Shown: positions 37,166 through 41,648 of the stretch, piece after piece
Numbering within the stretch: position 1 is the stretch's first letter
How the letters are laid out: each line of letters opens with the position of its first letter
NCBI RefSeq assembly: GCF_018687075.1
Contig: NZ_CP061285.1
Coordinates: 1,860,001-1,924,000 of the forward strand
Direction of reading: 5' to 3'
From: Polynucleobacter sp. MWH-UH35A
Lineage (GTDB): Bacteria > Pseudomonadota > Gammaproteobacteria > Burkholderiales > Burkholderiaceae
DNA: 64,000 bases
The notes under the pieces: generated by a model
What the model saw: only the letters and a program-made list of their open reading frames with translations
What the model was told of the DNA's origin: nothing
Database searches by the model: none
Translations under genes and position numbers: made by a program

Positions 37166-37792
37166 ATGGTCGATATGCACGGTAATTCACCAAAAACTCT
37201 TCGCCAAGATTTATTAAAACAACGCAAAGAATTTGCTGCTGGGAATGGCTACGCTCAAATTCAGGCTGATCTCATAGATCACTTAAATCAATTGTTATCT
37301 GAACAAGGCAATTCCTGGCAATCTATTGCTCTGTATTGGCCCATTCAAGACGAAGTTGATTTACGGTCTACCTTACTGGCCTGGGCTAAAAAAACCCCCA
37401 ATAGAACCCTCGCACTACCCTTTGCGCGGTCAGACAAACACCTCGATTTCTTTGAGTGGCGCCAAGGTGACCAATTGCTTCCAAGCAAACATGGCGTACT
37501 AGAACCTGATCCCAATAATTCTGCAAGGCCGCAAATCATCCCTGACCTAATCCTCATTCCTTGCGTGGGATGGTCTAGTTCAAAAGTGGGTGACAAAAAA
37601 CATTACTGGCGCTTAGGCTATGGTGGCGGATATTTTGATCGCACCTTAGCCGATCTCAGAAAGAAAAATCCCAAGCTTGTTTGCGTTGGGATTGGTTTTG
37701 ATTGGCAGCAACTAAATGATGGCCAGTGGTCAGCCCAGACTCATGATGAGCCACTCGATATGCTCCTGACGGAGTCAGGCTTACTTCGTTAA
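37166..37792 (+). CDS. 5-formyltetrahydrofolate cyclo-ligase
   Basis: This enzyme converts 5-formyl-THF to 5,10-methenyl-THF with ATP and so returns folate to the one-carbon pool used by metF. With the ATG at 37166 the protein has 208 residues, the normal size. Family motifs are TLRQDLLKQRKEF near the N-terminus, YWPIQDEVDLR, and the C-terminal LGYGGGYFDRTL phosphate-binding loop. Another in-frame ATG at 37175 is possible; the open frame back to 37067 overlaps the slt start and is an unlikely coding region. It converges with metF, overlapping it by 12 bases. Confidence 0.87.
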   Translation: MVDMHGNSPKTLRQDLLKQRKEFAAGNGYAQIQADLIDHLNQLLSEQGNSWQSIALYWPIQDEVDLRSTLLAWAKKTPNRTLALPFARSDKHLDFFEWRQGDQLLPSKHGVLEPDPNNSARPQIIPDLILIPCVGWSSSKVGDKKHYWRLGYGGGYFDRTLADLRKKNPKLVCVGIGFDWQQLNDGQWSAQTHDEPLDMLLTESGLLR

Positions 37793-38611
37793 GTCTAAAT
37801 TATCAGCAATCGCCAAAACGGCATCGGCCTGATTGAGTGAGTAAAAATGAATTCCAGGCGCGCCAGCGGTTAATAGCTGATCACAAAGATCTGTTACAAC
37901 CTCTTCACCAAATGCACGGATAGAGGCAATATCGTCGCCATAGGACTGAAGACGCAAACGAATCCAGCGCGGAATCTCTGCACCGCAGGCATCCGAGAAT
38001 CGCAGCAACTGACTGCTATTCGTAATCGGCATAATGCCGGCAATGATGGGCTGTGTGACACCTAAATCATAAGCCTCATCAACGAAACGGAAGTAAGCAT
38101 CGCTGTTATAGAAATACTGAGTGACTGCAGAGTTTGCGCCCGCCTTCATCTTTTGTACAAAGAAATCAACGTCACTCGCAGGCGACTTTGCCTGTGGATG
38201 CGTCTCTGGGTATGCAGCCACATCAATGTGAAACCAATCACCAGTCTCTGCACGAATAAATTCCACCAATTCATTGGCATGATGAAACTCGCCATACTGA
38301 CCCATGCCAGATGGCAAGTCTCCGCGCAAAGCCACAATTCGCTTCACGCCTAAAGCTTGGTATTGCTTGAGCATCTCACGCACACTTTCACGCGAACTAC
38401 CAACACAAGACAAATGAGGAGCAACTGCTGCACCAGCAGCATGAATGTCACTCACCACTTTTAATGTGCCAGACTGAGTAGAACCACCGGCACCAAAGGT
38501 AACGGAATAAAACGCTGGCTTGAGTGCTTCTGAAAAACGCTCGCGTACCAGATGCAACTTGGTCTCACCTTCAGGTGTTTTTGGAGGAAAGAATTCGACG
38601 CTTAATTCCAT
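37781..38611 (-). CDS. metF: 5,10-methylenetetrahydrofolate reductase
   Basis: This flavoenzyme makes 5-methyl-THF, the methyl donor for MetH. The 276-residue TIM-barrel protein opens with SVEFFPPKTPEGE (4-16), has VTFGAGGSTQSGTL, ALRGDLPSG and QYFYNSDAYFRF, and is full length against E. coli MetF (about 296). It lies 31 bases after ahcY, without the small holin-like gene that often separates the two in Burkholderia, so it is probably cotranscribed with ahcY and sits under the SAH riboswitch. Confidence 0.95.
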   Translation of the reverse strand: MELSVEFFPPKTPEGETKLHLVRERFSEALKPAFYSVTFGAGGSTQSGTLKVVSDIHAAGAAVAPHLSCVGSSRESVREMLKQYQALGVKRIVALRGDLPSGMGQYGEFHHANELVEFIRAETGDWFHIDVAAYPETHPQAKSPASDVDFFVQKMKAGANSAVTQYFYNSDAYFRFVDEAYDLGVTQPIIAGIMPITNSSQLLRFSDACGAEIPRWIRLRLQSYGDDIASIRAFGEEVVTDLCDQLLTAGAPGIHFYSLNQADAVLAIADNLDLTK

Positions 38612-38642: not shown

Positions 38643-40088
38643 TTAATAACGATAGTGGTCAGCCTTGTATGGGCCTTCCTTTGTTACGCCAATATATGCA
38701 GCCTGCTGATCTGACAACACAGTTAACTCCGCATTGAGAGTCTTGAGCTGTAAGCGTGCAACCTTCTCATCCAAATGCTTAGGCAATGTGTAAACACCGA
38801 TTGGATATTTGTCTGTACCTACTGCATTCCACAATTCAATCTGCGCAATCACTTGGTTTGCAAATGAGGAGCTCATTACATAAGAGGGATGGCCTGTGCC
38901 GCAACCTAGGTTGACCAAACGACCTTTAGCCAAAATGATGATGCGCTTTTCAGGCTTGCCATTGGCAGCTGGGAAAATCACATGATCAACTTGCGGCTTG
39001 ATTTCTTCCCACTTGTATTTTTCAATACCTGCAACATCGATCTCATTGTCAAAGTGACCAATGTTACAAACGATGGCTTGGTTCTTCATCTTAACCATGT
39101 GGTCATGTGTGATCACGTGGTAGTTGCCAGTTGCAGAAACAAAAATGTCTGCTTTATCAGCAGCGTAATCCATGGTGACAACACGGTAGCCTTCCATCGC
39201 AGCTTGCAATGCGCAGATTGGATCCACTTCAGTCACCCAAACTTGAGCAGATAAAGCGCGCAATGCCTGAGCCGAACCTTTGCCCACATCGCCGTAACCA
39301 CAAACCACAGCAACCTTGCCCGCCACCATTACGTCAGTAGCACGCTTGATCGCATCCACCAAAGACTCACGGCAACCATAAAGGTTATCGAACTTACTCT
39401 TGGTTACAGAGTCGTTTACGTTAATTGCGGGGAACTTCAGATCGCCTCTAGCAAACATTTGATACAAGCGATGAACACCAGTAGTGGTTTCTTCTGTAAC
39501 GCCTTTTACTTTTTCGAGGCGTGTTGAATACCAAGTTGGATCTTGTGCTAATTTTTTCTTAATAGCGGCAAACAAAATGGTTTCTTCTTCGCTAGTTGGG
39601 TGATTCAAGCAAGCTTGATCTTTTTCCGCGCGGGCACCGAGGTGCAATAACAAAGTAGCATCGCCACCATCATCCAAAATCATATTGGTGTAACCACCAT
39701 CGGCCCACTCAAAAATGCGATGCGTAAAGTCCCAATACTGCTCAAGGGTTTCGCCTTTAATCGCAAATACTGGCGTACCGTTTGCAGCAATGGCGGCAGC
39801 AGCATGGTCTTGTGTGGAAAAAATATTACAAGAGGCCCACTGAACTTCAGCGCCGAGGGCTTCTAGCGTCTCGATCAATACTGCAGTTTGGATGGTCATG
39901 TGCAAAGAGCCTGTAATGCGTGCACCACGCAATGGCTGTTGTGCGGCAAATTCATCGCGAATGGCGATCAATCCAGGCATCTCAGTTTCAGCAATCGCAA
40001 TTTCTTTACGACCAAAGTCAGCCAAAGAAATGTCGGCAATTGCGCAACGAGTTGCTACAAAGTTGTTTAAATCAGAAACGGTATTCAT
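38643..40088 (-). CDS. ahcY: S-adenosylhomocysteine hydrolase
   Basis: This enzyme splits SAH into adenosine and homocysteine, relieving product inhibition of methyltransferases. The 481-residue NAD-dependent protein has [16 protein letters not shown] near residue 60, the NAD loop [12 protein letters not shown] in the middle and the C-terminal [10 protein letters not shown] ending. I place the start at the ATG at 40088, preceded by GGAG (40094-40097). The open frame to 40148 runs through the riboswitch expression platform and should not be coding. The gene is preceded by an SAH aptamer and two hairpins and followed closely by metF. Confidence 0.95.
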
Positions 40089-40093
40089 TAATG

Positions 40094-40122
40094 CTCCAGC
40101 TAAATACGATCCAATGCTGGAG
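40094..40122 (-). promoter_or_regulatory. Hairpin covering the ahcY ribosome binding site
   Basis: Read on the minus strand, CTCCAGC (40116-40122) can pair perfectly over seven base pairs with GCTGGAG (40094-40100) around a 15-base loop. The second arm contains the ahcY Shine-Dalgarno GGAG, so the hairpin should block translation initiation. It lies downstream of the SAH aptamer and is a good candidate for the translational part of the expression platform. Confidence 0.6.
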
Positions 40123-40128
40123 TGGAAA

Positions 40129-40159
40129 CTCGCTAGCCGTTGAACCATGGGTTAGCGAG
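40129..40159 (-). promoter_or_regulatory. Switching hairpin after the SAH aptamer
   Basis: On the minus strand CTCGCTA (40153-40159) pairs with TAGCGAG (40129-40135) and is followed by TTTCC. Its first arm shares bases 40157-40159 with the pseudoknot strand of the SAH aptamer, so the two structures exclude each other. With only three U after the stem it is a weak terminator at best. Confidence 0.55.
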
Positions 40160-40260
40160 CGCGGTTGCAATTAGCAAACTCCAGAGATTTCCTTGGAGCC
40201 CACTCCCTTCAAGCCTGGGGAAGTGCTGGGTCACAGCATTCCTTGCAACGCTCCTTGAAG
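40155..40260 (-). promoter_or_regulatory. SAH riboswitch aptamer upstream of ahcY
   Basis: Read on the minus strand, the leader begins CUUCAAGGAGCGUUGCAAGG and later has CCCCAGGCUUGAAG and UUGCAACCGCGCUCGC, which match the SAH riboswitch consensus (GGAGCGYUGCR, CCAGGCU, GCGCUCGC). P1 pairs 40254-40260 with 40207-40213 over seven bases. A P2 hairpin, UGCUG/CAGCA, lies between. The pseudoknot pairs GAGCG (near 40253) with CGCUC (40157-40161). An extra hairpin, CUCCA/UGGAG, fills the optional P3 position. SAH aptamers are known before ahcY in betaproteobacteria and turn expression on when SAH rises. Confidence 0.9.
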
Positions 40261-40261
40261 G

Positions 40262-40291
40262 TATGCCGTAATTGTAAACAATTACGGCATA
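40262..40291. promoter_or_regulatory. Perfect 14-bp inverted repeat over the predicted ahcY -10 box
   Basis: TATGCCGTAATTGT (40262-40275) and ACAATTACGGCATA (40278-40291) are perfect reverse complements with a two-base AA centre. On the minus strand the repeat contains TACAAT (40271-40276), a good -10 box whose start point would fall near 40264, just before the SAH aptamer. The position suggests a protein operator. A factor-independent terminator for metK is less likely because no U-tract follows on the minus strand. Confidence 0.6.
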
Positions 40292-40329: not shown

Positions 40330-41496
40330 TTATAGACCTGCTGCGGCACGTAATGCAGCCGCCTTGTCAGTTTGCTCCCAAGTAAATTCTGGCTCCTCAC
40401 GACCGAAGTGGCCATAAGCAGCGGTCTTCTTATAAATTGGACGCAAGAGATTCAACATCTTCACAATGCCTTTTGGACGCAAGTCAAAATGCTCAGAAAC
40501 CAATTGAGCAATCTTCTCATCGGAAATCTTGCCTGTGCCAAAAGTACTCACCATTACTGAAGTGGGTTTTGCCACGCCAATCGCATAAGAAATCTGAATC
40601 AAGCACTTGCTTGCCAAACCAGCAGCAACCACGTTCTTTGCAACATAACGACCAGCGTATGCAGCAGAACGATCAACCTTAGATGGATCTTTACCAGAGA
40701 AAGCACCGCCGCCATGAGGAGCAGCACCACCATAGGTATCCACAATAATTTTGCGACCAGTTAAACCGCAATCGCCTTGTGGGCCGCCGATAACGAAACG
40801 CCCCGTTGGGTTCACTAAGAAGTTAATTGCGCCTTTGATCAAATGCTTAGGAAGCACTGGTTTGATAATTTCTTCAATCACTGCTTCGCGCAATTTCTCG
40901 AGAGAAATATCTTCGTCATGCTGAGTGGAGAGCACAACAGTATCAATAGAGTCAGGTTTGCCATCTGCATAACGCAAGGTCACTTGTGACTTCGCATCAG
41001 GACGCAACCAGTTCAAACGACCATCGCGACGCAATTGTGATTGACGCTCCACCAAGCGATGTGACAAGTGGATTGGTAAAGGCATCAATTCCGCAGTCTC
41101 ATCACAAGCGTAACCAAACATCAGACCTTGGTCGCCAGCGCCTTGATCTAAACCATCGTCATGCGCCTTATCAACGCCTTGGGCGATATCAGGACTTTGC
41201 TTGTCGTAAGCAACCAATACTGCACAACCTTTGTAGTCGATACCATAGGCGGTGTTGTCGTAACCGATTTCACGCAAGGTATTGCGTGCAACTTGGATGT
41301 AATCCACGTTAGCGTTAGTAGTAATTTCACCAGCTAAAACAACTAAGCCGGTATTGCACAACGTTTCTGCCGCTACACGTGCAGTTGGATCTTGAGCCAA
41401 GATGGCATCAAGAATCGAATCAGAGATTTGGTCTGCTACTTTATCGGGGTGACCTTCAGAAACCGATTCTGAGGTAAAGAAGTAATCATTTGCCAT
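40330..41496 (-). CDS. metK: S-adenosylmethionine synthetase
   Basis: This enzyme makes SAM from methionine and ATP. The 388-residue protein has the expected motifs: [20 protein letters not shown] at 7-26 with the catalytic histidine, [12 protein letters not shown] (about 117-128) and the phosphate loop [16 protein letters not shown] near 266-281. AGGA, 8 bases before the ATG, is the ribosome site. About 115 bases of predicted 5' leader precede it and contain a SAM-II-like aptamer. It lies upstream of ahcY on the same strand, separated by the ahcY riboswitch region, and is divergent from the first lipid A acyltransferase gene. Confidence 0.96.
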
Positions 41497-41559
41497 TGCA
41501 TATTCCTTTGTTAATTAACACGATCTTGGGACAACTCACGTGCCTGGAACTACAACGGC

Positions 41560-41612
41560 GACGCTTTAGCAGAATTTATGAATCGCTCTGCAAGTTGTCT
41601 TAACTCAGCGAT
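41560..41612 (-). promoter_or_regulatory. SAM-II-like riboswitch aptamer in the metK leader
   Basis: On the minus strand the leader reads AUCGCUGAGUUAAGACAACU, then UUGCAGAGCGAUUCAUAAAU, then UCUGCUAAAGCGUC. It shares with the SAM-II aptamer the order P1 5' strand, GA-UUAA loop, UUGCA, P1 3' strand, AUAAAU and GCUAAA. P1 is AUCGCU/AGCGAU. A GAC/GUC pairing closes the H-type pseudoknot. The part of P2 next to P1 is less well paired than in alphaproteobacterial examples, and SAM-V, which shares the core, is an alternative. The aptamer begins at the predicted transcription start. Confidence 0.68.
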
Positions 41613-41618
41613 GGAAGG

Positions 41619-41648
41619 ATTCTATCCGAAAAGTGGCTAATTCACCAA
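41619..41648 (-). promoter_or_regulatory. metK: Predicted metK promoter
   Basis: On the minus strand TTGGTG (41643-41648) and TAGAAT (41619-41624) are separated by 18 bases and resemble sigma-70 -35 and -10 boxes. Start of transcription would fall at about 41612, the first base of the SAM-II-like aptamer. The coincidence supports both calls, but neither has been tested. Confidence 0.5.

Follow-up and report, generated by a model that had tools for sequence, protein, structure and literature searches.

The gene for S-adenosylmethionine (SAM) synthetase, metK, has been a gap in the regulatory map of the betaproteobacteria. In the accessible text of their survey, Leyn et al. (2014) report that an Rfam scan of proteobacteria placed the SAM-II family (SAM_alpha) in Rhizobiales and Rhodobacterales only, that no known methionine regulator controls beta-proteobacterial metK, and that a search for a new element there failed (PMC4239095). 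The metK leader in a window of 64,000 nucleotides (the whole stretch of DNA that was analysed) from Polynucleobacter sp. MWH-UH35A raises the question of whether a riboswitch stands before this gene, to which class it would belong and how it would act. A sequence-only reading had proposed a variant SAM-II riboswitch at 41560..41612; its observation, a SAM-II-like element before metK, is confirmed as real, and comparison across relatives supports its interpretation of that element as a SAM-II variant. The element stands beyond chance because the Rfam SAM-II family is the top family for this leader, all orthologous leaders of the genus carry the element and its pairs covary across the order. With a probability of roughly 0.82, the metK leader would begin with an aptamer of the SAM-II superfamily, of a distinct metK subtype, acting as a feedback OFF switch on translation.

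On the minus strand from 41613 to 41560 the metK leader has the SAM-II layout of P1, third strand GAGUUAA, UUGC, P1, A-rich loop and GCUAAA. Read in order, its parts are AUCGCU, GAGUUAA, GACAAC, UUGC, AG, AGCGAU, UCAUAAAUU, CUGC, UAAA and GCGUC, and the end of GCUAA lies 69 nt upstream of the metK AUG. The match to our second model (R2) is the sole one in the organism's own genome at E<=0.01. The parts of the leader, with the basis for each, are as follows.

41643 to 41648, minus strand: -35-like hexamer TTGGTG (TTG starts the best -35-like hexamer in 37 of 67 genus leaders)
41619 to 41624, minus strand: -10-like hexamer TAGAAT, 18 bp from the -35-like hexamer (sequence; genus comparison)
41560 to 41613, minus strand: SAM-II-type aptamer of the metK variant (74.2 bits and E 7.8e-18 with R2)
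41607 to 41612, minus strand: P1 5' strand AUCGCU, partner at 41582 to 41587 (sequence and covariation)
41600 to 41606, minus strand: third strand GAGUUAA, in which 41603 and 41602, each U in all 25 letters, are taken to be U11 and U12 lining the SAM site (SAM-II numbering)
41594 to 41599, minus strand: P2a 5' strand GAC(AA)C, partners GUC and G at 41560 to 41564 (covariation)
41588 to 41593, minus strand: ligand-site UU, then P2b 5' strand GCAG (covariation, residue conservation)
41582 to 41587, minus strand: P1 3' strand AGCGAU (covariation)
41573 to 41581, minus strand: A-rich connecting loop, with inserts in some relatives
41569 to 41572, minus strand: P2b 3' strand CUGC (covariation)
41565 to 41568, minus strand: UAAA (residue conservation), presumably the SAM-contacting U44 A45 A46 A47 of SAM-II and SAM-V (SAM-II numbering)
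41560 to 41564, minus strand: P2a 3' strand GCGUC, alternatively the base of hairpin P3 (covariation)
41539 to 41563, minus strand: P3 hairpin CGU-C-GCC(loop)GGC-ACG, the alternative user of GCGUC (sequence)
41545 to 41556, minus strand: P3 loop GUUGUAGUUCCA, complement of the metK ribosome-binding site (GUUCC with GGAAU)
41530 to 41535, minus strand: GUUGUC, complement of the aptamer's GACAAC, genus-specific (68 of 68 genus leaders)
41502 to 41508, minus strand: metK Shine-Dalgarno region AAGGAAU (sequence)
40330 to 41496, minus strand: metK, S-adenosylmethionine synthetase (Pfam PF00438, PF02772 and PF02773)

The motifs first reported for this leader, in their order, core bases and coordinates, are all present. 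The interval given for the element was right in place, and the functional unit runs past its end at 41560: this is where P2a stops, and the expression platform probably extends as far as the start codon. The promoter proposed for it, TTGGTG-18-TAGAAT, is likewise present with the correct spacing, and 41612 is the 7th base after the TAGAAT hexamer. Within the genus, the gap between the hexamer (nearest TA-N-N-N-T) and the first P1 base is six bases, as in the window, in 45 of 67 leaders and five to eight bases in 57 of 67, with the hexamer absent in one of 68. As a consensus prediction, transcription could plausibly begin on or close to the first base of the aptamer.

Seventy metK leaders of the genus were read, comprising 68 orthologous leaders (window included) and two of a second metK; the element is present in 68/68 of the former and absent from both of the latter. 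This diverged second gene, 67-68% identical and without the riboswitch, occurs in two genus members (L077 and L078, in G039 and G008). In the wider order, a sample not picked for the element provided one metK leader each from 99 of 100 genomes, including three genus members (the hundredth leader, at a contig edge, was left out), and 28 of the 99 carried the element, the remaining 71 being without a match to the model used. The element is thus widespread in the order yet patchy. An exact-pattern scan of named genomes gave at least 120 stretches and at least 80 loci; among the matches listed, metK follows 61 of 80, a small MYDC/MFDC protein follows 14, and the other five precede different genes or lie too near an end to tell. 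The genera among those matches are Polynucleobacter, Limnobacter, Sutterella, Dechloromonas, Azonexus and Chromobacterium, with the Chromobacterium copies being of the MYDC kind. Variation in the loop was also seen: one genus member (L013, 2696-2792, minus strand) has a 10-nt tandem duplication (GTTAAGACAA twice) in the aptamer loop, a natural test of loop tolerance, and in five metK-type copies (L360, L398, L363, L188 and L419) large insertions separate the P1 3' side from GCUAAA.

Comparison of these relatives resolved two subtypes. A model built solely from 28 genus metK leaders (R1) has matches in 262 of 399 order genomes at E<=0.1; 80 stretches from its hits and 23 further non-genus loci gave a parsed set of 103 loci. 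A regular-expression parse of this set, with identical sequences counted once, yielded 164 candidates, of which nine were dropped (among them L142, a metK copy that the parse put out of register, and the possibly degenerate copy L153), and 88 of the 103 loci contained one or more distinct parsed aptamers. The terminator type reads GAUUUGA...CAGCUUGC, mostly with one base between UUGC and P1, and the metK type, to which the window's copy belongs, reads GAGUUAA...GACAACUUGC, mostly with two. By a simple hairpin-plus-T-run test, an intrinsic terminator follows 40/43 terminator-type copies and 2/58 metK-type copies; none was seen by eye in the window leader. Both types serve methionine or SAM genes: metK, by Pfam, in the window, and metZ (L149, L140) and metX (L166) for the terminator-type relatives, where NCBIfam cut-offs were passed, alongside other genes. 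The two types also occur in tandem, and all 13 pairs in the parse have the terminator type first and the metK type second.

Beyond the order, R2 at E<=0.01 has matches in 175 of 369 genomes of a class sample and 58 of 299 of a phylum sample, counts that include the terminator type; matches do reach outside the order, and a spread of the metK type beyond it is tentative. Among fifteen loci read from these searches, three belong to the order and several represent the terminator type. The class sample includes a genome (G737) with ten metK-type model matches, several as close pairs, and in two genomes outside the class (L214, L216) the first SAM-II-like core is followed by another whose P1 differs (~GGGAUUUGAGGGGCAGCUUGC).

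The two subtypes bear directly on how the element stands to SAM-II as Rfam defines it. RF00521 (SAM-II, SAM_alpha) was the top of 4,227 Rfam families for a 96-nt stretch of the leader, and in register, yet the window copy scores 12.8 bits (E 0.55), far below the gathering score of 36 bits. A search with the SAM-II and SAM-V models, recommended at the outset as a check, gave that divided answer for the former and no match in the window at E<=10 for the latter, which we take to be RF01826. An Rfam scan of 1.2 kb around the leader listed no SAM family, and when RF00521 was run over the organism's own genome the best SAM_alpha matches lay elsewhere and were no better than chance, as was also the case for each of the 14 controls. 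The missing score is bridged by intermediate copies. R1, which knows only genus metK leaders, finds terminator-type copies before metX and metZ elsewhere in the order, and when 12 R1 loci were compared with Rfam, four terminator-type copies (L151, L149, L167 and L186) passed the SAM-II cut-off, with scores of 44.8, 41.2, 39.2 and 36.9 bits, six more scored 24.8-35.3, and of two metK-type loci L096 scored 17.4 bits and L188 was not listed. Homology to copies that pass RF00521 is thereby reached through R1 loci, and the element is linked to Rfam SAM-II despite its low direct score. Across 150 order genomes RF00521 is above cut-off in 26 and at E<=0.01 in 68, and at the latter threshold it found nothing in the 14 controls or in the three genus members of that sample. 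The Rfam SAM-II model misses a whole subtype, and the element is to be filed as a SAM-II variant and not as a plain RF00521 member because the score test failed.

The structural case was made with two alignments: A2, of 60 metK-type sequences from the parse with at least 4 bp of P1 required, and A3, of 26 of the 28 model-found leaders in the metK sample (the partial matches L365 and L381 were left out). The A3 model was made from A2 and the genomes overlap, so the alignments are not independent; P1 and residue conservation are partly built into both, and P2 pairing was a criterion in neither. In A2, pairs of P1, P2a and P2b are formed in 96.7% of cells, with 8/14 pairs changed on both sides, a value reached in 0/500 shuffles, and sliding the partners by one to three columns leaves 28-46% paired. 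In A3 the figures are 93.4% and 7/14, again with 0/500 shuffles. Next to P1, P2b changes from A-U to G-C (23 and 26 sequences in A2); the outer P2a pair is GC in 45/59 and AU in 12/59; and the P2a strands change together, GAAC or GAGC with GUUC and CAAC with GUUG, with single swaps to GUC/GAC in L113 and AGC/GCU in L143. The H-type pseudoknot proposed from the window's letters is borne out by this covariation in P1, P2a and P2b; the outcome that would have spoken against the assignment, no model match coupled with no covariation in P1 and P2, is at odds with how strong that covariation is. The suspicion of a variant with a different P2 was also well founded, with P2b two base pairs longer than in SAM-II and P2a carrying an internal loop.

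Set beside RF00521, the element shares its order of parts, P1 with a pseudoknotted P2, the UUGC and GCUAAAG cores, the contact residues and an association with methionine and SAM genes. It differs in that the two extra P2b pairs of the metK type are Watson-Crick pairs adjoining P1, and in the window's P2a (GAC(AA)C/G(C)GUC), its G10, its metK target and an anti-RBS platform without a terminator. By anatomy, the metK-type element should work like SAM-II. SAM-V, whose binding core and pseudoknot are common to SAM-II and which also acts on translation according to the accessible text (PMC6061858), is a poorer fit: it has a short P3 separating P1 from the A-rich strand, which the window lacks, and in the window the Shine-Dalgarno (SD) region lies ~50 nt beyond P2a and would pair with a separate anti-RBS, not being held inside P2a.

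The window might instead hold another copy of the 'metXZ' RNA element of Leyn et al. (2014), which we regard as possible, on balance doubtful. That element comes from the same taxa and pathway, and its pseudoknot (regions 1-4 and 2-6) plus terminator, as described in the accessible text, fits the terminator-type copies, which stand before metX and metZ (L166, L149, L140) and are partly SAM-II by Rfam (PMC4239095). The metXZ element probably is the terminator type seen here, an identity drawn from the description and not from the Figure S2 alignment. The metK type differs in P2 and is mostly without a terminator, whereas the metXZ element was, in that text, reported solely before metX and metZ, with a terminator, with no ligand assigned and without recognition as SAM-II; the same text reports no metK element, its search having failed (PMC4239095). 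Together these points suggest, from the description, that the metXZ element belongs to SAM-II and that a separate SAM-II subtype serves metK.

Other published systems fit less closely or only in part. SAM-II has been described mainly from alphaproteobacteria, and the organisms in a figure legend of the founding paper include Bordetella, Coxiella and Bacteroides; the supposition that a Polynucleobacter copy would extend the range of the class falls away, SAM-II outside alphaproteobacteria being known already and 26 of the 150 order genomes scoring over the Rfam cut-off. The SAM/SAH riboswitch (RF01727) and SAM-Chlorobi are reported to precede metK in the sources as far as accessible; they are different RNAs, and neither was matched in the window. 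Tandem SAM-II arrangements have been described in 44 examples, some of which carry a terminator at the first copy and control the RBS through the second, a mixed order that agrees with the 13 pairs here, although the accessible text mentions neither metK nor a distinct subtype for the second copy (PMC9481103). From their scan of Polynucleobacter necessarius, Brewer et al. (2021) describe other motifs, the word metK being absent from the main text. We found no report of a SAM-II-type element before beta-proteobacterial metK in a literature search that lay mostly outside subscription papers.

How the aptamer would act on metK was approached through the sequence that follows it. A translational OFF switch is favoured because this sequence complements its own metK RBS across the order. 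In 168 usable metK leaders, grouped into 52 clusters, up to 45 nt following GCUAAA (less where the leader is short) were paired with the RBS: the duplex between a leader and its own RBS averages -16.2 kcal/mol, against -11.7 for swapped and -11.6 for shuffled partners, a difference equalled in 0/20000 permutations. Within the genus the P3 loop changes with the RBS, GUUCAAGUU occurring with AACUUGAAU and AUGGAUU with AAUCCAU. This is good evidence for a putative translational platform in the group. The case for the window itself is weaker: its own duplex, at -11.8 against a swapped mean of -12.3, is not distinctive, and its longest listed pairing is GUUCC/GGAAU, five pairs with one G-U.

In the mechanism that we propose, plentiful SAM would bind in the P2 triplex and P2a would take up GCGUC, leaving P3 without its closed base; we infer that P3 and P2a are mutually exclusive. 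The anti-RBS segment could then mask the SD region and reduce translation of SAM synthetase. When SAM is scarce, GCGUC and its neighbours would be free for P3 or, in this genus, GACAAC could pair with GUUGUC, which would work against the aptamer and leave the RBS open. The model is weakest for the SAM-free state. With GCGUC blocked, the computed unpaired fraction of the SD falls, in the expected direction, from 0.225 to 0.201, lower in 11/52, higher in 3/52 and the same in 38/52 (Wilcoxon p 5e-4), a tiny effect because most leaders fold into the sequestor anyway. An antisequestor formed by the P1 3' side with GCGUCGCC is strong in single leaders, with support limited to general conservation, and was set aside as no better than swapped partners, 3585/20000 permutations being as good over 50 clusters. 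GACAAC/GUUGUC as a general switch was also rejected, since outside the genus a 5-nt complement is found in 1/43 clusters; GUUGUC at 41530-41535 is a possible candidate for a genus-specific anti-aptamer strand.

That SAM instead promotes termination, intrinsic or Rho-dependent, would agree with the accessible statement that most SAM-II riboswitches are transcriptional (PMC6061858) and with the terminators behind 40/43 of the related terminator-type copies. We consider it improbable for the metK type, given that a simple intrinsic terminator follows just 2/58 of its copies and that the anti-RBS complementarity is specific to each leader.

The translational OFF switch presupposes that SAM is the ligand, and the residues of its site are largely those of SAM-II. 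The SAM-contact residues (third-strand UU, UU before GC, and UAAA) are present in the window. The regular expression demands the third-strand UU and at least 4 bp of P1, and residue counts were therefore taken from A3, whose model already favours these residues: U11 and U12 are conserved in 25/25 letters each, U20 and U21 in 24/24 each, U44 in 25/26, A45 in 26/26, A46 in 25/26 and A47 in 26/26. The main departure inside the ligand site is third-strand position 10, which is G in the window and in 22/25 A3 letters and U in 3/25, where the SAM-II consensus has U (GAUUU(A/G)); U10 is kept in 15/112 parsed metK-type copies.

This G10, together with a P2 unlike that of SAM-II and the position of some copies before genes without a known SAM link, such as a MoxR-type ATPase, could mean that the fold has been kept and SAM specificity lost or altered, in favour of SAH or methylthioadenosine for example. 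We hold such a change to be very improbable. According to the accessible text on SAM-V, the sulfonium faces a U:A.U triple, the adenine rests on a U, and the core superposes on SAM-II (PMC6061858). Here the residues matching both U:A.U triples are kept, as is the A by which SAM-V holds the aminoacyl group; SAM synthetase is the commonest target (61/80 among the matches listed), and copies with U10 (3/25 in A3 and 15/112 overall) have the same architecture. That the leader is a mere SAM-II look-alike, a conserved structure such as a MetK protein site without any small-molecule ligand, has the window's score under the Rfam cut-off in its favour and is scarcely credible beside the continuous series from Rfam-level SAM-II to metK-type copies, the pseudoknot covariation and the retained ligand-site residues.

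Targets other than metK were noted along the way. A metK-type aptamer, often after a terminator-type one, precedes a ~100-aa orphan protein (MYDC/MFDC) at L087, at L136 and at 14 named loci; two of these proteins were tested and had no Pfam match, and at L086 a MATE transporter follows. At L194 the aptamer stands before a MoxR-type AAA ATPase (PF20030, PF07728) with no obvious SAM link, as it does, judged by eye, at L105, L108, L193, L196 and L283. A bolder proposal, which we think unlikely, would make the metK type a separate translational riboswitch class within a SAM-II/SAM-V superfamily. Such a class would have its own P2 geometry and covarying anti-RBS platform, be widespread in Burkholderiales and beyond, and serve as the second half of tandems (terminator-type SAM-II first) before the orphan small protein, the MATE transporter, the MoxR-type ATPase and others, with a changed third strand that would give it an affinity or ligand range unlike that of SAM-II.

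The genes beside metK place the proposed switch in a wider setting.

40150 to 40262, minus strand: SAH riboswitch (RF01057, Rfam 47.4 bits), preceding ahcY
38643 to 40148, minus strand: ahcY
37781 to 38611, minus strand: metF (MTHFR), after ahcY

In this organism the SAM cycle would stand under two adjacent riboswitches, one of the SAM type on metK and one for SAH before ahcY, followed by metF. For the family, the metK regulator gap of the published survey would be filled for part of the order (28/99 leaders sampled), and the two subtypes offer ready constructs in which one aptamer core is wired either to termination or to masking of the ribosome site. A SAM-II-type element in the metK leader, common to many betaproteobacteria, probably curbs translation of SAM synthetase when SAM is plentiful.
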